DNA from: a virus
Strand: one strand, 5' to 3'
Virus record (IMG/VR): IMGVR_UViG_3300030380_002418
Coordinates: 1 to 27,464 of that record
DNA: 27,464 nt
Every line of letters starts with the position of its first letter. Position 1 is the stretch's first letter. A model generated the notes under the pieces. It ran no database searches. It was not told the origin of the DNA and saw only the letters and a program-made list of their open reading frames with translations. The position numbers and the translations under genes are program-made. Positions 4,300 to 17,853 of this stretch are shown here, piece after piece.

Positions 4300-4422
4300 A
4301 CGACCCTGACCTCTGTACTTTTTCTTATACTTTACCTGACCTTTACTTGCATTTTTAGAATGTACATTAGGTCTTTTAGTACGTTTGTTTGGTCTGTACT
4401 TGCTTATAACTAACTTAGCCAT
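4297..4422 (-). CDS. 41-aa very basic small protein
   Basis: A short ORF from ATG 4422 to TAA 4299-4297 encodes MAKLVISKYRPNKRTKRPNV and then a Lys/Arg/Tyr-rich second half ending KKKYRGQGR. About a third of its residues are Lys or Arg. Its start overlaps the end of the holin-like gene by 8 nt (GGC TAA inside ATGGCTAAG), typical of coupled translation. Its stop overlaps a regulatory repeat. I recall tiny basic proteins of this sort (SKYRPN... YRGQGR) in Bacteroidota phages, with no known role. The composition suggests nucleic-acid or membrane-surface binding. The ORF is short, but the overlap and composition support it. Confidence 0.7.
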   Translation of the reverse strand: MAKLVISKYRPNKRTKRPNVHSKNASKGQVKYKKKYRGQGR

Positions 4423-4879
4423 TCTTTTTAAATATGTCTATTGCTTTTTCACTTGACCTACCACCAAAGTAAGCTAATACAACAGCCATCATTACTTTTT
4501 CAAATGTATCGTTCCAAGTAGCGCCAATAGTAAACGGTACATTATCTATACTATCTAATATGCCTGCTAAAGAAAAAACAACAATACACCATATTAAAAC
4601 CATTGGTCTTACATTTTTAGCCATCCATGAATCGCTATTACTATCAGATTCCCACCTAGAAGTTATAGCTTCCATTTCTTTATTTTGTTGCTCGTAAATC
4701 ATTTGTTGTAGTTTTATCTTATCATCACTAGATATTTTAGATTTACCTATTTCAGCTATAGCCTCTTCTGGAGAACTAACACCACTTAATACTTTTCCTA
4801 GTGTTGGATTTATCATTGATGCTGCACCAAATAATAATTTGCCAACTGTAGTTTCCTTAAATTTCTTTTTATCCGACAT
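4415..4879 (-). CDS. Holin-like membrane protein
   Basis: A 154-aa protein with a soluble N-terminal half (KETTVGKLLFGAASMINPTL, then a charged helix about 50-80). SWMAKNVRPMVLIWCIVVFS leads into a membrane helix (about 92-110), and a second hydrophobic helix VMMAVVLAYFGG (about 129-140) is followed by RSSEKAI. The SWxAxNxRPM segment before a membrane helix and the final FGGRSxEK motif match the three-TM holin family found in gene transfer agents and many phages. Such proteins let the endolysin reach the cell wall. It overlaps the M15 endolysin gene by 11 nt, which supports a lysis role. Exact topology is not certain. Confidence 0.75.
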   Translation of the reverse strand: MSDKKKFKETTVGKLLFGAASMINPTLGKVLSGVSSPEEAIAEIGKSKISSDDKIKLQQMIYEQQNKEMEAITSRWESDSNSDSWMAKNVRPMVLIWCIVVFSLAGILDSIDNVPFTIGATWNDTFEKVMMAVVLAYFGGRSSEKAIDIFKKNG

Positions 4880-5342
4880 TTGTTATATCTATATATTTAG
4901 TTTTACCATTTTCTCTTATAGCTTTTAAGCATCTTTTTCTGTTAGAATCAGCATCTACATAACTAACATGAACCCAATCAGGGCTATCATTTGTGCCAAA
5001 CTCCCAAATAAGTTGGTCAAAGTCGAGATTATCTTTAATATAATAATACATATAAGCATTACTAACGTGACCGTAAATATCGTCAATATCAATAGCACGT
5101 CCTTGACAATGTTGGCTTTTACTGCTGCCTCCAATAGCTTTATTAAGTTCTTCACATCTATAAAATGAGTTTATTTTAATTGGTGCACCAACTGCTTCTC
5201 TAAGTGGCTCAAACACCTTATTAGCTACCATCTCCATATTTTGTAAGTGATATTCATTAGGCACATTATCTATACCTAAACGTAAAGCTGTTGCACTTCT
5301 AGTAGCTTCTTTATAAGTTATATGTTTACTTATTCTATTCAT
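4869..5342 (-). CDS. M15-family peptidoglycan endopeptidase (endolysin)
   Basis: A 157-aa protein with the D,D-carboxypeptidase-like M15 zinc peptidase fold. INSFYRCEELNKAIGG leads to SQHCQGRAIDID, which supplies His78 and Asp85, and WVHVS supplies His125; these are the three expected zinc ligands. LIWEF lies between them as expected. It should cleave peptide cross-links in peptidoglycan at lysis. It lacks a signal peptide, so it would need the neighbouring holin. Its ATG overlaps the lipoprotein stop (TAATG) and its end overlaps the holin-like gene by 11 nt. The length is typical of a single-domain M15 endolysin. All ligands are present. Confidence 0.92.
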   Translation of the reverse strand: MNRISKHITYKEATRSATALRLGIDNVPNEYHLQNMEMVANKVFEPLREAVGAPIKINSFYRCEELNKAIGGSSKSQHCQGRAIDIDDIYGHVSNAYMYYYIKDNLDFDQLIWEFGTNDSPDWVHVSYVDADSNRKRCLKAIRENGKTKYIDITNVG

Positions 5343-7065: not shown

Positions 7066-10000
7066 TTAATTATTTATTTGTGTTTTTAAAGTTTCTATTT
7101 CTGCTTTTAGTTCTTGTATTGACTTAATTAAGAAAGGCACTAAATCTGAATAGTTTAATCCCTCAACTTGTGGTTCATCAAAGCCTTCAATTTCTTTTGT
7201 AAATACAACTTCAGGAATAATATCGAATGTTTCTTCAGCAATTAAACCACAAGCAGGTTGTCCAGTTTTTATATCATTATATCTTACTGGTCGTAATGTG
7301 TTAATTTTATCTAAAGAACTTTCAAGATTTACTATATCAGTTTTATATCTTATAGAAGATGCTTGATAATATATTTCTCCGTCACTTGTATCATATCTTA
7401 AATCAGCACCTGTAGGAGTATAAGCATTTAAATGAGGTGCTTTTATTGTTCCAGCAGCTGTAATACGCATTCTTTCTGTAAGTGTTCCACCTGTTGCAGT
7501 TTGGAAAGCTATCTCGCCACCTAATGGACTTGCAGTAGTAATATCCCCAATTATTTTAGCATAAACATTTCCGTGTGTTTGATAAGAAAATCCAATTTCT
7601 GTATCTCCTGATGAAAATACTTCTAAAGCATTACTTGAATTAGTACCTACTATAACCTTGCCACCACTTTCAATACGCATTCTTTCTACTGCTGATGCAC
7701 CTGTTTCATTAGTAGCAAATATCATATCCTGACCATTTGAACCACTTGTATTTATTGTACTTATATATGAATACCTATTTGTACCTACATCATCGTTTGT
7801 ATGTGCAGCAAAACCTAACCTTGCTTCTGTATTTAGAGTTGTACTTTTATTGACTATAAATAAGGGTATTGTTGGTTGTCCTGCATTAGTGCTATGGATT
7901 TGAACTTTTGCAGATACAGATGTGGTTCCAATGCCTATTTCTCCCCCAGATGTTATACGCATTCTTTCTGTGCCACCTACTTTAAAAACGTGAGAGCCAC
8001 CTACAACATTACTTCCCTCCCAATTTAAATCTTGATAGTTACTACCATTATAAGCAAACCTAGCGGTTGAACTATTTGTTGTTTCAACGTGCAACTTAAC
8101 ATCAGGCGAAGTCGTTCCAATTCCTACGTTTCCAGTATTAGTAAGAGTTAATATTTCATCATTACTACCTGAATTAGTACCTATTGTAAAATTATTACTT
8201 GCTCCTTGTGATGGATTACCTATAAACCAATCTAATACTCCAGTTTTTGTTAAAGTAATTCTAGGCAGTGTAGATTTTTTTATTTGTAGTATACTTGTAG
8301 GCGAAGTCGTTCCTATTCCTACGTTTCCACCACCAATTATTCTTATTGCTTCTGTTTCACTTCCACCACCACTAGGGGCAACATTAAATGCTAAACCATT
8401 ATTAAATCCTTTTATAGCACCACCAGAATTTGTAATATTATCACCAGTAACTCTTATTAAACCATCACCACTTGTAGCGTGAACGTGTACTTTGGCAGAT
8501 GGCGATGCTGTTCCAATTCCTAAATTACCTCCTTGTGTTAAATAAAGTTTTGTTGCAAAACTTGCATCTCTAACGTGAAAACAAGTACTCGCATCCGCAC
8601 CAATATAACCACCTCCTGCATTTTGTCCTGTCCTAAACAAACCAAGCTGCACAGAACCATTCTCGTGAGCAAACCTCGCATAACCATTTCCATCTTGGCT
8701 AACAAAAGTATTATTTCCATCAACTACAGTTAATTTAGATGAAGGCGAAGTCGTTCCGATTCCTACGTTTTGATTAAAATAAGTATTGCCATTTTGTAGC
8801 ATTACCATATGATAGTAATTAGCAGTACCTAATCTATATGATTCATCAGCTAAAACTAAAGCTGAACCCATTACAGTATCAGTTGCTGGTTTTGTAATAA
8901 ATAAACCTGACCTTGTATTTTCTGACCTTAATTGCAAAGAAGCATCTGTATCTCTCTTTAAATAATTTAATCCATTTGTGGCTGTAATCTGAGTTGTTTG
9001 TATAGTACCTGCAAAAGTTGAGTTTTGTGAAGCATCTATTGTTAAAGCAGGAACTTTAGCAGCAGTTCCTAATATTAATTTTTGACCTGCAAAAGAAGTC
9101 CCAACATATACAGAAGAACTTCCATCTCTAACCATACTAAATTCTCCTATTCTACTTGCACCTTCATATAAACCGTAACCCCAAACATTTGAACTTGAAA
9201 TTGAATTACTTGTATTAACTGCTTTTGTAAAAATACCTTCACCTAAATTAAAAGTAGATGCTCCAACAGTAGATATAGTACCATTAACAGTCAAATTATC
9301 ATCAACAGTTAAAGTGTCGTGTATAGTTGTTGAGTCTCTTATATCTACAGAAGTACTACTAAGACCTAACACCTCAACACCTTCTATAATTTGAAATGAA
9401 AAGGTAGAATTTGAATGAAACTGAAACGCATCTGTATCGTGGTCAACTCTAATATAATTTATAGGAGAACTTGTGCTGTCTGCGAATGCTAAATATGCAG
9501 CTTCATCTGTTGCACTAGCTATTGTAACACCTCCTTCATCTGGAGCATTTATTACTAATTCGTGTTTACTATAAGAACTTGGATTAGCTGTATTGATACC
9601 AACAGAATCTTCTGAAGTATCAATATGTATAATATTAAGAGATGTCGCATCTCCTATTTGTATATCGTTATTTTCTTCACTTTTAATTTGTAATTTACTT
9701 CCTGAGCTTGTTATTTGACCAACAAATGTACCAGTGCTAGTTCCTACCGCCCAAGCATTAGTAGAATATCCAAATCCTTTTACATAAAACCTAGAAGCAT
9801 TACCAGGATTTGATTCACTTATGGATATATCTCCTCCTGATTGTATTCTCATCATTTCAGTTGATTCTATTGTAAAAATCAAATCTGTACCACTTGTTTG
9901 AGTTATATAATTATCAGTTCCATCACTATATATTTCTAAATCATCATCAACACCTAACAAAATTTTATTATTATCTCCTAAATCTATATTTCCATTTACA

Positions 10001-11412
10001 TCAATTCCAGTTGAATTTACAGTTAATCTTGTAGTTCCTGAACTTTTAAATGTGTGAGTAGTAGAACTCAATGAATAAAATTGGTCAGTATCATTTCTAA
10101 ACAAAAAACTATCAGACCTTAAGAATATACTACCCCCAGCAGTATCGTTTATTATACCAAACTGAGTAGCGCCATCAAAATACATTTCAACGTCACTATC
10201 AGTTCCATAATAAATCTTCTGGTTATCAGCCATTATAATATTATTAGCACCTGAGGTATTACCCCCTGCAAGTACTTCAGCTAATGTATCGTGACCTGTA
10301 ATAGCAGTATCTACATAAGCAGTAGTAGCCACTTTAGTACTATTGTCTCCATCTGATTGAGTAGTCGCTGTCACACCATCTGCTAAAACAGAAGTTGCAG
10401 TTAAATTACCTGTAACATCTCCAGTTACATTACCTGTTAAGTCACCTGTAACGTCACCAGTAACATTTCCTGTGACATTACCCGTTAAATTTCCTGTAAC
10501 ATTTCCTGTTAAGTTACCACTAAAACTACTTGCAGTAACACCTCCTTCAAAAGTAGCATCTTGTGAAGTGTCTATCGTTAACGCTAATGTTTCTGCTGTA
10601 TTAAATATTAAGTCTCCTGTAGCTGTAGTTATTTCATTACCACCAGAACTTGTAATAATTCTTAAATCATAATCGTCTGTATGCGGTGCTTTTAAATCTA
10701 TATAACCACCTGAAGCTCCACCTATTTCTATTCTACCAAAAGCAGAACCTTCAATAGTTAATTCATCATCTATAACTAATGTTCCAGCTATATTTACATT
10801 ATCTGTAAATAAACCTGTAGTACCTGATATAGTTCCACCTGTTACATTACCAGTCAAATTACCAGTAACATTACCAGTAAGATTACCAGTTACGTTTCCT
10901 TCTAAGGCAGCAATTAGAGTAGCTTGAGCATATCCTGTTCCACTTGTATTTACTGTTGTAGTAGGTTCAGTTTGTAAGTCTTTGAATAATCTGTATTTAC
11001 CTGTTAGAGCTTCTCTAAACAATCCTGAGTATAATGTAGTACCTGAAGGAGTATATTTGCCATAAAATCCTATGTCAACTGCATCTGTAGAAGTGTTATT
11101 GTTTGCCAGTACAATTAAAGGGTCTTTTACTGTTAATGTATCTGTTCCTACTGTTGTAGTGCTTCCTTCTACTACTAAGTTTCCAATAACTGTTAGATTG
11201 CTACCTATTTTAGCATCTCCGTAAACGTGAAGGTTTAATCCTGATTCTGGTGTTACTCCTATTCCTACTTGAGTAGTAGAAACAAATAAAGGTGAATTAT
11301 TACCAAAACCATCAGTTAATTGTTTAGCACCAACTGTTATATTTCCATTATCAGAGAACTTTACAAGCGACTGATAAGTATCTTTTATTTTATTTCCTGA
11401 AAGTGTAGCCAT
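7066..11412 (-). CDS. Long tail fibre with C-terminal S74 intramolecular chaperone
   Basis: A 1448-aa repeat-rich protein. Two blocks of GNVTGNLTG-type tetrapeptide repeats (about residues 170-190 and 297-340) are followed by many GIGTTSPxxKLHV-type repeats through the shaft, both typical of beta-rich trimeric fibres. The C-terminal 97 residues form an S74-type chaperone domain: SSIRYKTDIV, with candidate catalytic Ser1352 and Lys1357, then LRPVRYND, CGLIAEE and a final coiled coil (IKSIQELKAEIETLK). In this family the domain trimerises the fibre and then cuts itself off. The protein would contact the host surface. The start overlaps the stop of a 35-aa ORF (TAATG). Intact throughout. Confidence 0.9.
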   Translation of the reverse strand: MATLSGNKIKDTYQSLVKFSDNGNITVGAKQLTDGFGNNSPLFVSTTQVGIGVTPESGLNLHVYGDAKIGSNLTVIGNLVVEGSTTTVGTDTLTVKDPLIVLANNNTSTDAVDIGFYGKYTPSGTTLYSGLFREALTGKYRLFKDLQTEPTTTVNTSGTGYAQATLIAALEGNVTGNLTGNVTGNLTGNVTGGTISGTTGLFTDNVNIAGTLVIDDELTIEGSAFGRIEIGGASGGYIDLKAPHTDDYDLRIITSSGGNEITTATGDLIFNTAETLALTIDTSQDATFEGGVTASSFSGNLTGNVTGNLTGNVTGNVTGDVTGDLTGNVTGDVTGNLTATSVLADGVTATTQSDGDNSTKVATTAYVDTAITGHDTLAEVLAGGNTSGANNIIMADNQKIYYGTDSDVEMYFDGATQFGIINDTAGGSIFLRSDSFLFRNDTDQFYSLSSTTHTFKSSGTTRLTVNSTGIDVNGNIDLGDNNKILLGVDDDLEIYSDGTDNYITQTSGTDLIFTIESTEMMRIQSGGDISISESNPGNASRFYVKGFGYSTNAWAVGTSTGTFVGQITSSGSKLQIKSEENNDIQIGDATSLNIIHIDTSEDSVGINTANPSSYSKHELVINAPDEGGVTIASATDEAAYLAFADSTSSPINYIRVDHDTDAFQFHSNSTFSFQIIEGVEVLGLSSTSVDIRDSTTIHDTLTVDDNLTVNGTISTVGASTFNLGEGIFTKAVNTSNSISSSNVWGYGLYEGASRIGEFSMVRDGSSSVYVGTSFAGQKLILGTAAKVPALTIDASQNSTFAGTIQTTQITATNGLNYLKRDTDASLQLRSENTRSGLFITKPATDTVMGSALVLADESYRLGTANYYHMVMLQNGNTYFNQNVGIGTTSPSSKLTVVDGNNTFVSQDGNGYARFAHENGSVQLGLFRTGQNAGGGYIGADASTCFHVRDASFATKLYLTQGGNLGIGTASPSAKVHVHATSGDGLIRVTGDNITNSGGAIKGFNNGLAFNVAPSGGGSETEAIRIIGGGNVGIGTTSPTSILQIKKSTLPRITLTKTGVLDWFIGNPSQGASNNFTIGTNSGSNDEILTLTNTGNVGIGTTSPDVKLHVETTNSSTARFAYNGSNYQDLNWEGSNVVGGSHVFKVGGTERMRITSGGEIGIGTTSVSAKVQIHSTNAGQPTIPLFIVNKSTTLNTEARLGFAAHTNDDVGTNRYSYISTINTSGSNGQDMIFATNETGASAVERMRIESGGKVIVGTNSSNALEVFSSGDTEIGFSYQTHGNVYAKIIGDITTASPLGGEIAFQTATGGTLTERMRITAAGTIKAPHLNAYTPTGADLRYDTSDGEIYYQASSIRYKTDIVNLESSLDKINTLRPVRYNDIKTGQPACGLIAEETFDIIPEVVFTKEIEGFDEPQVEGLNYSDLVPFLIKSIQELKAEIETLKTQINN
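8104..8772. repeat. Three near-identical 28-30 bp repeats inside the fibre gene
   Basis: The plus-strand segment GGCGAAGTCGTTCC, one variable base, then TTCCTACGTTT recurs near 8104-8132, 8299-8328 and 8744-8772. A diverged copy lies near 8500. Each encodes the VGIGTTSP turn. Nucleotide identity is higher than elsewhere in the shaft, suggesting recent duplication or recombination among repeats. Confidence 0.7.
10395..10525. repeat. 12-bp tandem repeat tract in the fibre gene
   Basis: About ten 12-bp units of the type CCTGTNACATTN or CCNGTTAARTTN encode alternating GNVT, GNLT, GDVT and GDLT. A shorter tract of similar units lies at about 10838-10900. The units differ mostly at third positions, so this is a coding repeat that could change length by slippage or recombination. 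Confidence 0.75.
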
Positions 11413-11598: not shown

Positions 11599-12089
11599 CC
11601 GTGAAATCCTGTGTCTTTATCTGGATAAATATCTTGATTAGAATTACTATAATACTCGTCAAATTTAGACGGTGCATTATAAGTCATGTAATCTATAAAT
11701 CTTTGAGCATAATACTCAGCAAAATCTCTCTCCTTTTGAATTAAGAAATCTATCTCTTCTTTATTTGCTATTTGACTATTTTCAGCATTATGTTTATATA
11801 CTCCTCCATTTGATATAGAATAAGCTGCAAATGGTAAGTATTCTACCATAGCAAAGTGTATAAGCATTGGTTGTATATAGTCATTAACTAAATCCAAGTA
11901 ATCTCCACTTAAACTTCCCGCTATAATATCAGCACTTATTTTATCGTATAAATCTGTGCCTAAATAATTTTGTACATGAATTTCTTGTGCCAAACTAATA
12001 AACTGTATAAATTTATCTGTATCCACATTTGAATTTAACGCAGTGTTTTTAACTAAATCTGACCTTTTTATAAATAGTGCTGTTGCCAT
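11586..12089 (-). CDS. DUF6712-like head completion / head-tail connector protein
   Basis: A 167-aa mostly helical protein. It begins MATALFIKRSDLVKNTALNS and has NVDTDKFIQFISLAQEIHVQ, then YLGTDLYDKISADI, a helical VNDYIQPMLIHFAMVEYL segment and KEEIDFLIQKERDFAEYYAQ near the C-terminus. The early DLVxNT...NVDxDKFxxxIxxAQ...LGTxLY order matches the DUF6712-type proteins that sit downstream of portal genes in Bacteroidota phages, and resembles gp6-type connector adaptors. It probably joins the portal vertex to the tail. Its ATG directly abuts the portal stop. Assignment rests on pattern and position. Confidence 0.7.
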   Translation of the reverse strand: MATALFIKRSDLVKNTALNSNVDTDKFIQFISLAQEIHVQNYLGTDLYDKISADIIAGSLSGDYLDLVNDYIQPMLIHFAMVEYLPFAAYSISNGGVYKHNAENSQIANKEEIDFLIQKERDFAEYYAQRFIDYMTYNAPSKFDEYYSNSNQDIYPDKDTGFHGWVL

Positions 12090-13336
12090 TATTCTTCTAT
12101 ATTTATTTGTTCTTCTATTTCTTCACTATCTTCCTTTTTTATTCCTGTTTCTTTTTCTATCTCTGCATCTGTAATAGCATTTGTTAAGTCAGTAAATTCT
12201 AAAGGTTGTAATGTTTTAAAGTATATATCTAATTCAATTCCGTTATACATCAATACTTTTTCTAGTTCATCTAGTATAGTAACTTGCATTGGACGAATAA
12301 CTGTATTGTCCATAAGTAAAGATGCTGTTTGTAATTCTTCAGCGTTATTACCTAAACCAGTATTGTCTTTTATACCCACAAGCATAGGCGATACAATTCT
12401 GTGTGATACCATTACCTTTCTCATAGATTCATCACTTAAGAATTTATATTGCTCATGAGCATCACTTAGTATAACTGGCTCAATACTTGCAGACAGTTCT
12501 TTACTATCGTTAAATGCTAATATAAATCTACCAGCATTAGAAGACCCACTAAACTTTTCTTGTATGTTTTGCTCAATCAAACTTCTTTGTTCTTCTGTAG
12601 GAACACCATTATTAAAGTTTATAAGCATACTTGGTGCAAGACCATTTTGTATATTATTTATATGATAGTTCGCTATCTCTTCTTCTAATTCAGCATATTG
12701 TAAACCTCCTTGATAATCTACTGGTGAATAGTAATAAAATCCAGCTCTATAAGGTTTGATATATAGTATTTCTAATCCTGACTTGCTAGTTCCAAACGCA
12801 GGTATTCTTTTAGGTTGTGTTTTAAAAGTAACGTCTGACCAATCTTTAGCATAGTAATAACCTTGTATTTCACCCTTGTTATTTGCCTTCTCTGCCCTTA
12901 ACGTCTCTACAGGTATATGTTCTACTTGTACAATCTTTTTTCTGTCCTTAGAATAGATTATTTGGATTGCAGCTTGACCCATCATCTTATAGTCGTAACA
13001 TACTTTTTTCATACAAGATTTAGTAAAGAGCTCTTTCATTTCTATATAGTCAGCTTCTTTTTCTTTACTGTCAACTGCATCAATTCCTTTTCCGTATATC
13101 ATCTCGGCAATACCATTGATAGCAGCATTGTTAGTAGGGCTTCCGTTATATCTGTCTATTAAATAACTAAAATAATTATTATCATCTCCGTACTCTACCC
13201 AATCTCTATTGTATTGTTCTTTGATTTCAGGTCTTGTGTAGGAAGACATATTAACTATATGTATCTTTCCTTTTTCTGCTTTTGGCAACGGTTTACTATT
13301 ATATCTTTTTTTTGCCATTTTATTTACTTTTCTCAT
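12089..13336 (-). CDS. Phage portal protein
   Basis: A 415-aa protein with the shape of a portal subunit. YGDDNNYFSYLIDRYNGSPT is followed by NNAAINGIAEMIYGKGID, a wing with CYDYKMMGQAAIQIIYSKD, and a clip/stem region with YHINNIQNGLAPSMLINFNN. The later LSDESMRKVMVSHRIVSPML and GLGNNAEELQTASLLM segments are characteristic of Bacteroidota phage portals. Twelve copies would form the DNA channel at one capsid vertex. The length is normal. The start at 13336 overlaps the previous stop (ATGA); an internal ATG at 13318 (MAKKRYN) is an alternative. The C-terminus is a Glu/Ile-rich tail. Confidence 0.88.
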   Translation of the reverse strand: MRKVNKMAKKRYNSKPLPKAEKGKIHIVNMSSYTRPEIKEQYNRDWVEYGDDNNYFSYLIDRYNGSPTNNAAINGIAEMIYGKGIDAVDSKEKEADYIEMKELFTKSCMKKVCYDYKMMGQAAIQIIYSKDRKKIVQVEHIPVETLRAEKANNKGEIQGYYYAKDWSDVTFKTQPKRIPAFGTSKSGLEILYIKPYRAGFYYYSPVDYQGGLQYAELEEEIANYHINNIQNGLAPSMLINFNNGVPTEEQRSLIEQNIQEKFSGSSNAGRFILAFNDSKELSASIEPVILSDAHEQYKFLSDESMRKVMVSHRIVSPMLVGIKDNTGLGNNAEELQTASLLMDNTVIRPMQVTILDELEKVLMYNGIELDIYFKTLQPLEFTDLTNAITDAEIEKETGIKKEDSEEIEEQINIEE

Positions 13337-14404: not shown

Positions 14405-15364
14405 TTAAGAATATAGTACAATGTCAGACCCTATTCCGTACTGAACTCCAGCAGTAAATCTCATAACAACTCTTACGTTTTGAGAACCATCTAGGTCAGC
14501 CATATCGATTAACTTAACTTCGTTGTGGTCAGATAAAAGACCTGTTCCGAAGAATAAGTTAGATTTTTGAGCAGCAACAGCTCTGTTGTCAGCAAGACCG
14601 TTAGCAACAAATAATTTTACACCATCAAAAGATAATGCTCCATTTTGCCACCACATAGTACCTTGATTAGATACACCGTTTGCTCCAATGCTAGATACGT
14701 TTTCAGTACCAGCAGCATTTTCTAAGATTCCAAATCCTCCTAGTGCTCTTACATAAGCTCTAGCGATGTTTTGAGATACATAGATAAATAAATCTTCTTT
14801 TCCATATAGTGAAGAAGGAATAGCATCAACGATAGCTCCTAGTTGAGCAATAACGTTTGAAGATGTTACAGTCGCAGCAGCAACGTCAATAACGTCACCA
14901 TCAGCAGCTAATAAAGTTGTAAATCCATCGAATTCACCAGCGTTTCCGTTAACACCTTTCCAAATGTTGTTTTCTGTTTTTTCAGCAACTAATCCAGAAA
15001 CGTGACCAATTAAGTAGTCAGAGAATTTTGGAGGTAGGTTGTCAAAAGCAGAGTATCCCATTTGTACAGCTTCCCAGTCACTTCTAAAGTCTTTCTTACA
15101 AAGCTCTAGGTTTACTTGGAATTCTTCTGGTTGAAGGATTCTTTCAGTTAATGTAATAGTTGCAGTATCAGTGAAATCACAAGTTGCATCTTTGATTACG
15201 TTAGCATCAGTAGCAATTTTTTTGATTACCTCTTTGAACTTTACATTTGGTTTGATTTCAATACCACCTCTATCAAGTGTAACACCTGATAATAAAGCAG
15301 CAGAAATGTACTTGCCTGCAAATTCGCCAGCATAAGTACTTGTAATTGATGTAGTAGTAGCCAT
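14405..15364 (-). CDS. Major capsid protein, HK97-like
   Basis: A 319-aa protein whose length, position after a scaffold-like gene and composition fit an HK97-fold capsid subunit. It starts ATTTSITSTYAGEFAGKYIS. VTLDRGGIEIKPNVKFKEVI forms the region before the main fold. Later segments include LTERILQPEEFQVNLELCKK, a long spine-like helix (FSDYLIGHVSGLVAEKTENN) and a C-terminal FTAGVQYGIGSDIVLYS strand. Codon use appears richer in G+C than in neighbouring genes, typical of a highly expressed capsid gene. A strong terminator follows. The upstream scaffold gene ends 25 nt before. No separate delta domain is obvious. Confidence 0.8.
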   Translation of the reverse strand: MATTTSITSTYAGEFAGKYISAALLSGVTLDRGGIEIKPNVKFKEVIKKIATDANVIKDATCDFTDTATITLTERILQPEEFQVNLELCKKDFRSDWEAVQMGYSAFDNLPPKFSDYLIGHVSGLVAEKTENNIWKGVNGNAGEFDGFTTLLAADGDVIDVAAATVTSSNVIAQLGAIVDAIPSSLYGKEDLFIYVSQNIARAYVRALGGFGILENAAGTENVSSIGANGVSNQGTMWWQNGALSFDGVKLFVANGLADNRAVAAQKSNLFFGTGLLSDHNEVKLIDMADLDGSQNVRVVMRFTAGVQYGIGSDIVLYS

Positions 15365-15389: not shown

Positions 15390-15923
15390 TTATTTTAAAT
15401 TAGCAATTCTGTTCATTACCCTATCTCTAGTGTTCATAACTCTGTTTTGACCAAAAGATTTAAAGTTTTGTTTTACTTCCCCTTCAGGGTTGTGTGCGAT
15501 TGGTTCTGAAGCTGGTTCAGCAGATAACTTTTCTATTTCTTTTTCCATAGATAGTTTTTCTTCATTGTAACCCAATTTCATTTCTTCAATCATTTTCTTT
15601 AGTTCAGAGATTTTAGAATCAAATTCGTCTCTTCCAACGTATTTTGTTTCATCCATCTCAATTTCTTCAGAGGCTTCCTCCATTACAGGAACTTCCTCTT
15701 GTAACTCTTCAGAAACAACTTCTTCAGAAGACAACTCCTCTTTTACTTCTTCTTCTTGACAAGCAAGTTCAGTAAGTTCTTGAGATAGTTTTTCTTCTTC
15801 TTTAACTTCTTCCGAAAGATTTACTTCTTGATTCACCTCAACTTCTTTTACTTCATCCTTTTTAACTAATGATAGTTTTTCCATGATGTCGTTCAAAATT
15901 GATGTAGCTTTAGTGTTTTCCAT
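15390..15923 (-). CDS. Putative capsid scaffolding protein
   Basis: A 177-aa, extremely acidic, helical protein. Residues about 20-95 are nearly continuous Glu/Val/Leu heptads (EVKEVEVNQEVNLSEEVKEE, then SSEEVVSEELQEEVPVMEEA). A coiled coil follows (FDSKISELKKMIEEMK, about 104-119). The basic C-terminus (FGQNRVMNTRDRVMNRIANL, about 157-176) would dock on the capsid. An acidic rod with a positively charged C-terminus next to the major capsid gene is the usual scaffold design. EPASEPIAHNPEG forms a flexible linker. It is probably removed by the protease encoded at 16354-17853. Function is from composition and position. Confidence 0.72.
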   Translation of the reverse strand: MENTKATSILNDIMEKLSLVKKDEVKEVEVNQEVNLSEEVKEEEKLSQELTELACQEEEVKEELSSEEVVSEELQEEVPVMEEASEEIEMDETKYVGRDEFDSKISELKKMIEEMKLGYNEEKLSMEKEIEKLSAEPASEPIAHNPEGEVKQNFKSFGQNRVMNTRDRVMNRIANLK

Positions 15924-15988: not shown

Positions 15989-16357
15989 TTAGTTTGCAGC
16001 AATACAAGCCGTACAATCATCATATAGAGTAATAGATTCAATTTCTAATCCAACTTCTGTTGTTGTTCTCAATACAGTATAACATCCTGTATGATGATTA
16101 TTTTTTAATGTTAAATGATAAACATTTCCAACAACTAAAGATATTGTATCCGACCAAACATTATGTTTGTGACCATCCGAACAAAACTCAACTCTATACA
16201 TATTAGATTTTGGTGCTATAGCTCTTATTCTTCCAACGCCTTGACTTCTTAAAGTACCATCACAACACTTTCTTGAATATGTGCCATCTTTACACATACA
16301 ACCTCTTCTACTACCACTTGGAACAGCGTTTCCTACAGTTTCATTTGTTTTTTTCAT
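15989..16357 (-). CDS. Cysteine-rich small virion-module protein
   Basis: A 122-aa protein. SRRGCMCKDGTYSRKCCDGT places four Cys in a short N-terminal loop. The rest is beta-rich with further Cys: RVEFCSDGHKHNVW, NHHTGCYTVLRTTT and a final YDDCTACIAA. Nine cysteines in all suggest metal binding or disulphides. I recall RRGCxCxDGxxYSRxCCDG proteins in Flavobacteriia phages near the capsid genes, without a known function. It starts with an ATGA overlap on the protease stop and lies before the scaffold gene, so a minor capsid or decoration role is likely. Confidence 0.6.
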   Translation of the reverse strand: MKKTNETVGNAVPSGSRRGCMCKDGTYSRKCCDGTLRSQGVGRIRAIAPKSNMYRVEFCSDGHKHNVWSDTISLVVGNVYHLTLKNNHHTGCYTVLRTTTEVGLEIESITLYDDCTACIAAN

Positions 16358-17853
16358 TTCTTACTGCTTTTAGGATGTTTAGTTGGTAGCAAATCGTAAT
16401 CAGTTGTGTACTTAGCATTTTCTGGTCTTCCGTTTCTTACTAGGTACATAAAAGCGTTAACTCTGGCGTGTGCCCACTGTGAAGGTGATTTTACGTTTGG
16501 TGAATGACTTGTATTGTATGCTCCAAGACCTCTTTGAAATACTGAGGCTAGCATACCAACAGTTATACCATAACCTAACTTTTCCTTATATCTTTTATTA
16601 AAATCATCTGCTTTCTTTTGTAATGAAGCTCTGTCTTTTGCAGATACTTTAGCACCTCTTTTGCCAGAAGCATCTCCTTTTGCCGTTCCTTTACCTTTAG
16701 GGTTTTTGTTAGGCGTATCAGATTTAGGTGCTTTAGGGCTTTTTCTTATAACACCATCTTTACCGACTTCTGCTAGTTTATGTTGTTCACAAGGCATATA
16801 CCAAGTCTTACCTTCAAGCTCGTGTTCGTGTATTCCTTTACAATCTAAATCTTCAGCCATTTTTTCAGCCATTTCTCTAGTTGAATATGCTAATCTATCA
16901 TTTATAATTGCATGGTCTTTATCTACAACCATAGATGCCATTTTTAATTCACCAAGTTCTCTTAGCTTGCCTCTTGACCAATTTAATCCTGCTTTGCCTC
17001 CCCATAGTAAATAAGATATAGTTCCACAAGCTTTACTGTCTCCAGCATCATAATATGTCTCTGCTCGACTTAAATAAGAATACATCCTCTTAATTGTTGA
17101 TACACTCAATTTCTCACCTCTTGATAATTGCTGAGCTCTTATTTTTCCTACGCTTGTGGCACATTTATTATTTACTTTTTTATTTAGTTCAATGCCTCTT
17201 TTAGCATTATTTCTAACACCACTTCCATAATCACTATAAGTTTTAAATTCATACTTATTATCTAGTATTGAATTAGCAATCTCTAATAATATTTCTGTAG
17301 CTTCTTCTTCATTGTGTATTTCTTCTATTCTACTCATGGCAATTTTATCAGTGAAATAACCTTCTATAGAAAAACCTTTGACCAATCCTGTCTTTATATA
17401 GTCGTTCCAAACCTTATCATTATTAACTTTCATAGATACCATCCAAGTACCAATAGGCAAATCCATACCGTACTTTCTTGACTTATCATGTACGTCATCT
17501 TCTATAATCCAAGATTCAACTACAGATAAACCATGTAATTCAGCTTGATGTTCTAATGTAGATTTGTTTTGATTTCCTCTCATTAAGAATAATTGTGAGG
17601 CTTGTCTTACTGTATCTTCACTAAAGAATATATAATACTCATCTTCACCATTTCTTCTATATATGTTTTTGTTGGGAACTAAAGCCGCACCCATTAATAT
17701 TTTCTTTTCTTTGTTAACTTCAGCAAGTTTTATTTCGTGTTGTTTAGATAATGCAATAAAGTTTTCTTCTATTGCAGGCTCATCAACTATAGATATAGCC
17801 TCTATGCCTGATAATAATTGTTCTTCGTCTATAAGTAATTCTACTATTTTCAT
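16354..17853 (-). CDS. XkdF-like prohead protease fused to further domains
   Basis: A 499-aa multidomain protein. Residues about 50-170 resemble the XkdF-like serine protease domain (Peptidase S78_2): LMGAALVPNKNIYRRNGEDE, STLEHQ with candidate His102, SWIIEDDVHD, and VKGFSIEGYF with candidate Ser162. Residues 205-302 form a separate Cys/Tyr-containing domain (CATSVGKIRAQQLSRG, IKRMYSYLSRAETYYDAGDS, GTISYLLWGGKAG). A small third block (312-360) has AEDLDCKGIHEHELEGKTW. A Lys/Gly/Pro linker (370-403) joins a C-terminal domain (405-491) with LGYGITVGMLASVFQRGLGA that resembles DUF5824. It probably matures the prohead. The additional domains have unknown roles. The stop overlaps the next start by 4 nt. 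Confidence 0.75.
   Translation of the reverse strand: MKIVELLIDEEQLLSGIEAISIVDEPAIEENFIALSKQHEIKLAEVNKEKKILMGAALVPNKNIYRRNGEDEYYIFFSEDTVRQASQLFLMRGNQNKSTLEHQAELHGLSVVESWIIEDDVHDKSRKYGMDLPIGTWMVSMKVNNDKVWNDYIKTGLVKGFSIEGYFTDKIAMSRIEEIHNEEEATEILLEIANSILDNKYEFKTYSDYGSGVRNNAKRGIELNKKVNNKCATSVGKIRAQQLSRGEKLSVSTIKRMYSYLSRAETYYDAGDSKACGTISYLLWGGKAGLNWSRGKLRELGELKMASMVVDKDHAIINDRLAYSTREMAEKMAEDLDCKGIHEHELEGKTWYMPCEQHKLAEVGKDGVIRKSPKAPKSDTPNKNPKGKGTAKGDASGKRGAKVSAKDRASLQKKADDFNKRYKEKLGYGITVGMLASVFQRGLGAYNTSHSPNVKSPSQWAHARVNAFMYLVRNGRPENAKYTTDYDLLPTKHPKSSKK

Follow-up and report, generated by a model that had tools for sequence, protein, structure and literature searches.

A head maturation protease with three C-terminal modules that recur on other head proteins of bacterial and haloarchaeal viruses

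The four-part protease gene and its neighborhood

The window, i.e., the whole 27,464-base stretch of the virus record analyzed here, contains an open reading frame (ORF) of 499 amino acids at positions 17853-16354. The original prediction of an ORF at these positions holds, and its strand is the minus strand, the plus strand across 16354-17853 having many stops. On the basis of the ORF, Pfam matches and relatives, we describe its product (16354..17853, minus strand) as a head maturation protease with three C-terminal candidate passenger modules, which we call B, C and D. Residues 1-175 (17329..17853, minus strand) form an XkdF-type Peptidase_S78_2 protease, matched by Pfam at residues 44-166 (PF14550; E value 2e-13, 50.9 bits, gathering cut-off 24) and by phrog_24921 over residues 1-175. 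His102 (codon 17548-17550) and Ser162 (codon 17368-17370), which we take to be candidate catalytic residues, lie within this part, as had been claimed, and are invariant in 58/58 distinct orthologs, the window sequence among them.

Module B (residues 205-304; 16942..17241, minus strand) is a five-helix domain without a Pfam model, delineated by its AF2 model, by homologs and by phrog_2859, which covers residues 213-294. Module C (residues 310-362; 16768..16926, minus strand) is a DUF3721 mini-domain with Cys338, His342, His344, Cys355 and His358, which Pfam matches at residues 323-359 (PF12518; 5.9e-8, 32.8 bits versus a cut-off of 27). It is followed by a Lys/Gly-rich linker (residues 363-398; 16660..16767, minus strand) that is probably disordered, judging from its low pLDDT and its net charge of +7, and then by module D (residues 399-499; 16357..16659, minus strand), a basic (+13) domain of three helices identified from Pfam, its model and homologs. 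The DUF5824 match in D (PF19141, residues 428-485; 2.2e-6, 28.3 bits) exceeds the curated cut-off of 25. The Lys/Gly linker and the DUF5824-like end were thus correctly anticipated. Of the two blocks originally called uncharacterized, B (about 205-302) indeed lacks a Pfam model, but the second is DUF3721, a named Pfam family without an assigned function. No NCBIfam model was found for the 499-residue protein or for standalone B. The net charge is −8 for the protease, +11 for B, −6 for C, +7 for the linker and +13 for D, so that B, linker and D together place about +31 on an acidic protease.

The gene sits in a head module, all on the minus strand. Downstream are an ORF for a 122-residue protein without a family match (15989..16357), which overlaps the protease gene at its stop codon; an ORF for a Glu-rich protein of 177 residues (15390..15923) without an informative family match, scaffold-like as inferred from its position and composition; and an ORF for a 319-residue putative major capsid protein (14405..15364). 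The last assignment was made from position and a weak PHROGs match (phrog_1623, virion structural protein, 0.0015); the best match is to phrog_11320, of unknown function (5.8e-44), and Pfam yielded none. Further on lies a portal gene (12089..13336; phrog_33693, 3.3e-93) whose product is devoid of B, C and D. Elsewhere on the minus strand, the window encodes a tail-fiber-like protein of 1448 residues that contains repeats of the GNVTGN type and has a Peptidase_S74 chaperone at its C terminus (7066-11412), a probable lysis pair consisting of a Peptidase_M15_3 protein (4e-18) and a weak, below-cut-off holin match (4415-5342), and a primase-helicase with Toprim and DnaB_C domains (1102-2829). A 189-residue protein (274-843) presumably resembles a small sigma factor, as judged by eye; Pfam yields only a below-cut-off chance match for it.

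IMG/VR was scanned with the window gene, and the best 80 of 584 relatives were analyzed with HMMs. Protease and B are present in 80/80 of them and the complete protease-B-C-D set in 76/80, two lacking C (L052 and L053) and two lacking D (L059 and L060). The four-part gene is therefore no assembly artefact. Far from being absent from related protease genes, the modules are thus kept as a full set in most of these relatives, and they also occur in other protease families (see below). Identity to the window peaks in B and D (median 94%, compared with 81% for the protease) and falls lowest in the linker at residues 176-204, with a minimum of 18%. Divergence at fourfold-degenerate sites is about equal across the domains. 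As B and D are about as diverged at these sites as the protease, their high identity reflects constraint, which is no weaker on either module than on the protease. Recent acquisition of B and D by horizontal transfer had been considered as a source of the high identity in L045-L056 and was dropped, since the fourfold sites are about as diverged as those of the protease.

The modules vary individually among these orthologs. In three of them (L061, L071 and L078) the protease is 80-81% identical to that of the window and B only 49-53%, with corresponding DNA identities of 74-79% and 53-56%, which indicates that B was replaced while the protease was kept. The orthologs in L059 (6001-7137) and L060 (5032-6168) stop directly after C, a clean loss of D; L059 also has a shortened version of the next small ORF, the one of 122 residues in the window. 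In AU tests with 5000 resamplings, the data of each domain were rejected under the trees of the other domains, in a comparison with each domain's own optimum on short alignments; given these limits, the evidence for exchange is taken from the replacement of B in L061, L071 and L078 instead.

The modules on other carriers

Further scans were seeded with D, B, haloviral B, B in GTDB genomes, pelagiphage-type D and PaBG/cell-type B, so that they matched the module and not the carrier. The best 80 loci were taken per scan, and as the seeds were phage or window modules the samples are non-random; carriers were detected with HMMs built from the collected loci, by which diverged carriers are missed. 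In the D-seeded scan, D is accompanied by a portal, S78, S78_2 or capsid domain in 65 of the best 80 ORFs, and the B-seeded scan showed a head-assembly domain of these four kinds in 66/77 new loci. The PaBG/cell-type B scan revealed a head carrier in 67 of the best 80 B ORFs, 41 by HMM and 26 by similarity outside B to representatives typed by Pfam or PHROG. The Pfam carriers of the modules comprise Phage_portal, Peptidase_S78, Peptidase_S78_2, DUF2213, Phage_capsid and Phage_Mu_F, to which the PaBG/cell-type B scan adds Phage_portal_2, Portal_Mu and Phage_portal_3, placing B on four portal families, and two further maturation-protease PHROGs. A Pfam census of two sets of non-redundant carriers, of 61 and 40 proteins, gave Peptidase_S78 in 33 and 5, Phage_capsid in 28 and 3, Phage_portal in 17 and 4, Phage_Mu_F in 3 and 5, Peptidase_S78_2 in 1 and 7, and DUF2213 in 0 and 3, respectively.

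Among named viruses, Halogranum tailed virus 1 has B in its prohead protease, HRTV-4 and HRTV-28 have it in their portal-MuF proteins, and Vibrio, Curvibacter and Limnohabitans phages in their head regions. B and D are N-terminal in a 974-residue protein of Roseobacter phage CRP-831 annotated as major capsid protein, and the protease of Salinibacter phage 15_1 is preceded by D and a C-like motif. B, C and D are thus found again, in either order, on portals and MuF-like proteins as well as on several protease families and on protease-capsid polyproteins. They are not specific to the window protease and occur in viruses of both bacteria and haloarchaea.

Other domains were also seen on these carriers. 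In the census sets of 61 and 40 proteins, further passengers were Hva1_TUDOR (6 and 6) and DUF3721 (6 and 7), with one Ferritin (ferritin/Dps-like) and one acid-phosphatase-like HAD domain among the additional ones. Hva1_TUDOR (DUF2945) recurs beside B in phage head proteins (L252, 4691-5983; L092, 4851-5234; and others). Another common module, recognized by eye from the motif GGVVAQMKW, accompanies D in L137 (5503-6693), L142 (5722-6759) and L085 (5095-7635); its hosts are marine contigs and Salinibacter phages.

The position of the modules was analyzed in 94 non-redundant complete viral ORFs, 73 of which have a carrier detected by HMM; truncated ORFs, ORFs shorter than 200 residues, near-duplicates and the 80 window orthologs were left out. 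The modules are C-terminal in 20/20 portal fusions and 7/7 DUF2213 fusions, and N-terminal in 30/30 capsid-protein fusions and 37/38 S78 fusions (all non-redundant). In S78_2 fusions they are N-terminal in 8/8 cases outside the window family and C-terminal within it. Among the 21 ORFs without an HMM carrier, nine show similarity outside B to the portal-MuF protein of HRTV-4 or to the MuF portion of that protein, and two match MuF-like head-morphogenesis PHROGs. The portal C terminus and the N-terminal part of the HK97-type capsid precursor point into the capsid lumen, where the protease also works. The module-bearing ends are therefore expected to face the capsid interior. The carriers have no common assembly partner; what they share is the compartment.

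B follows MuF in L277 (4060-6468) and lies between portal and MuF in L099 (3609-6098; HRTV-4). Comparison of L277 with HRTV-4 indicates that B was relocated within one halovirus carrier type. Single modules are thus lost, swapped and relocated individually. Where a locus shows portal as well as protease or capsid genes, B or D is on the portal only in 29 loci, on the protease or capsid protein only in 61, on both in none and on neither in 12; counted by distinct portals, the numbers are 16, 16, 0 and 10. The absence of double carriers may be due to chance if carriage is rare, and for the C domain exclusivity is not significant after removal of redundancy (p = 0.28).

B and D also occur away from head proteins. 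No head domain was detected by HMM in any of the best 80 ORFs with pelagiphage/cyanophage-type D, most of which are cytidylyltransferase-like; in pelagiphage HTVC008M, for instance, D is on a protein of the cytidylyltransferase family. According to the available text of the respective reports, two orthologs of this type of carrier, T4-GC190 of S-SM1 (PMC3037559) and ORF154 of S-CREM2 (PMC10665884), are virion proteins by mass spectrometry. D was not detectable in the S-SM1 cytidylyltransferase protein. Among the 44 B ORFs from GTDB genomes, B stands alone in 34. These are mostly standalone genes for proteins of about 105-175 residues, in Patescibacteria, rhizobia and others; loci such as L334, L339, L336 and L350 have standalone B of about 105-135 residues in Patescibacteria, rhizobia and alphaproteobacterial endosymbionts. 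The only recurring neighbor of cellular B is TspO-like, in several Patescibacteria-type loci. Since B is found as standalone cellular genes, it also works in cells. In PaBG and Vibrio phage 150E35-1, B lies outside the head region; the B gene is not named in the available text of the PaBG paper (PMC7412058). The cellular B genes and the cytidylyltransferase-borne D count against a virion-only role.

Predicted structures of B, C and D

The original prediction had proposed structure models of residues 205-302 and 405-491. Modeling yielded five helices with high confidence for B and three helices, confidently, for D. For B (residues 200-308, 62 aligned sequences), AF2 gave a pLDDT of 92.9 and a pTM of 0.85. 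Searches of this model against the PDB returned a best Foldseek E value of 1.6, and a best VIA-align Z score of 4.2 to unrelated helical proteins. A missing PDB match does not prove a new fold. An hhalign comparison of B with S78_2 and other families found nothing. An independent structure search of BFVD recovered B within entries for XkdF, prohead protease and portal proteins.

The model of residues 305-499 has an overall pLDDT of 78; C and D are confident, and the linker at 363-398 is disordered, with a pLDDT below 50 over most of its length. In 64 non-redundant sequences of C, Cys338 and Cys355 co-occur: 45 have both, 19 neither and none only one. His342 is present in 64/64 and His358 in 62/64 of them. 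The covariation of the two Cys residues points to either a metal site or a disulfide bond in C. A tblastn search of C against phage records gave no match.

Candidate role and relation to known systems

We propose that B, C and D are probably carrier-independent passenger domains, placed on those ends of head proteins that lie in the capsid lumen, and that the window protease doubles as their carrier, its C-terminal tail being the passengers. The modules would be fused to the portal C terminus, to a MuF-like protein, to the protease or to the N-terminal region of a protease-capsid polyprotein; as part of a procapsid component they would enter the head and need no packaging signal themselves. 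The original idea that the extra domains might be cargo carried into the capsid thus gains comparative support, with the same modules found on portal, MuF, protease and protease-capsid proteins at the end expected to face the lumen. During maturation the window protease could release its own tail, and the modules would stay with the packaged DNA and then enter the host alongside it. In the literature searched we found no published virion proteomics of a B, C or D carrier. Packaging and ejection, from residence in the procapsid through cleavage by the protease and retention with the DNA to host entry, are thus inferred. The presence in virions of cytidylyltransferase-family proteins lends indirect support, although D was not detected in the S-SM1 member. 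The weakest step is the proposed binding of B and D to nucleic acid, that of the packaged or incoming genome, or to a host nucleic-acid machine; its sole basis is charge, and B of haloarchaeal viruses is acidic, as halophile proteins generally are. A fuller version, in which B, C and D form a kit used by tailed viruses of bacteria and archaea, with at least B having cellular counterparts, that is cut free by the maturation protease, ejected with the genome and active on nucleic acid or the host transcription machinery within the first minutes after infection, is put forward only tentatively.

A more specific function could be read from D: once in the host, a domain resembling sigma-factor region 2 would bind the cell's RNA polymerase or promoter DNA that has been opened, the tail delivering a transcription factor. 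Nearly all of the 50 entries listed by VIA-align for D are bacterial sigma factors, and ranks 1-6 in Foldseek are the SigE N-terminal domain (best E value 0.23). However, the top VIA-align match has a Z score of 6.6 (rmsd 3.5 over 76 residues), and for helical domains a Z score below 8 can reflect a common arrangement. Membership of D in the sigma-70 region 2 family was rejected by hhalign, which gave a probability below 1%, with equal or higher values for control families (sigma profiles built on 19 and on 30 loci drawn from seven genomes; 65 control families), and D has no match to Pfam sigma families up to an E value of 1. We thus consider this function improbable and the modeled likeness weak, a lead.

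The modules might instead serve assembly, as scaffold-like domains or domains binding a partner (protease, portal or scaffold) in the procapsid that are discarded on maturation without any delivery. Every carrier acts in head assembly, and sidedness fits the positions of scaffold and delta domains equally well. Nevertheless, orthologs that are otherwise conserved naturally lose D or C or replace B, standalone cellular B genes exist, and a separate scaffold-like ORF adjoins the protease gene in the window. Moreover, portals of four families carry modules, and portals are not generally known to be processed. We hold an assembly function to be unlikely. An explanation as a processing polyprotein, whose protease cuts itself into proteins for the producing cell so that fusion means co-expression only, would account for the disordered Lys/Gly linker before D, for the protease in the same chain as the modules and for their occurrence as separate genes, yet it leaves portal carriage and the strict placement unexplained; with co-expression alone, non-head late genes would be expected as carriers equally often. 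We give it hardly any credence.

The preferred reading as passenger domains has precedents. Polyvalent proteins, known from phages and conjugative elements (Iyer et al. 2017, PMC5512222), as portrayed in the available text of that paper, are multi-domain chains, some on portal or MuF proteins, proposed to be packaged and injected. The window protein resembles them in combining at least two domains of distinct function in a single chain, in a terminase-portal phage, and in relatives its modules are fused to portal or MuF proteins. In contrast, the hub domains described there (zincin peptidase, ART, PBECR, 2H and DdrB-ParB) differ from the modules found here, and Pfam identifies only S78_2, DUF3721 and DUF5824 in the window protein, with no polyvalent hub domain. 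Unlike here, no prohead-protease or capsid-protein carriers were seen in the available text, which describes polyvalent proteins as few in archaea (PMC5512222); the modules B, C and D, by contrast, are present in haloarchaeal viruses. The MuF polymorphic toxins of temperate phages similarly have variable domains on a head protein, but the window gene lacks a recognized toxin domain and its modules are conserved, not hypervariable (compared with the available text of PMC5576092). Pfam found no Phage_Mu_F match in the window protein.

In lambda-type protease-scaffold and HK97-type delta-domain fusions, extra protease or capsid sequence is likewise inside the procapsid. Unlike those, B, C and D are common to portals and MuF-like proteins, and B is also cellular. 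The closest contrast within the protease family is gp1 of Nonlabens phage P12024S (Peptidase_S78_2/XkdF), which aligns to residues 1-175 of the window protein at 46% but differs in its C-terminal half, where B, C and D are all missing; no similarity between this tail and the 177-residue ORF of the window was found. The literature searched contained no mention of DUF5824 or DUF3721 and no description of these fusions, and the available text of a survey of archaeal tailed viruses (PMC8651126) is silent on protease and MuF. Portal and MuF proteins that bear effectors in the head are known, having been described as polyvalent proteins in the accessible part of PMC5512222. New are the named conserved module set, the protease and protease-capsid carriers, the strict sidedness and the presence in haloarchaeal viruses.

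If the proposal is true, attachment of B, C or D to the correct end of a head protein would serve as an address label predicting location in the capsid interior, and hundreds of unannotated genes of marine and haloarchaeal viruses would acquire testable functions. Natural sites that tolerate loss and swapping would be available for placing a domain inside a virus head. Head-borne effectors would extend from portal and MuF proteins to maturation proteases and capsid polyproteins, and it would become testable which proteins accompany the genome into the host in siphovirus-like marine phages without internal proteins of the T4 or N4 type.
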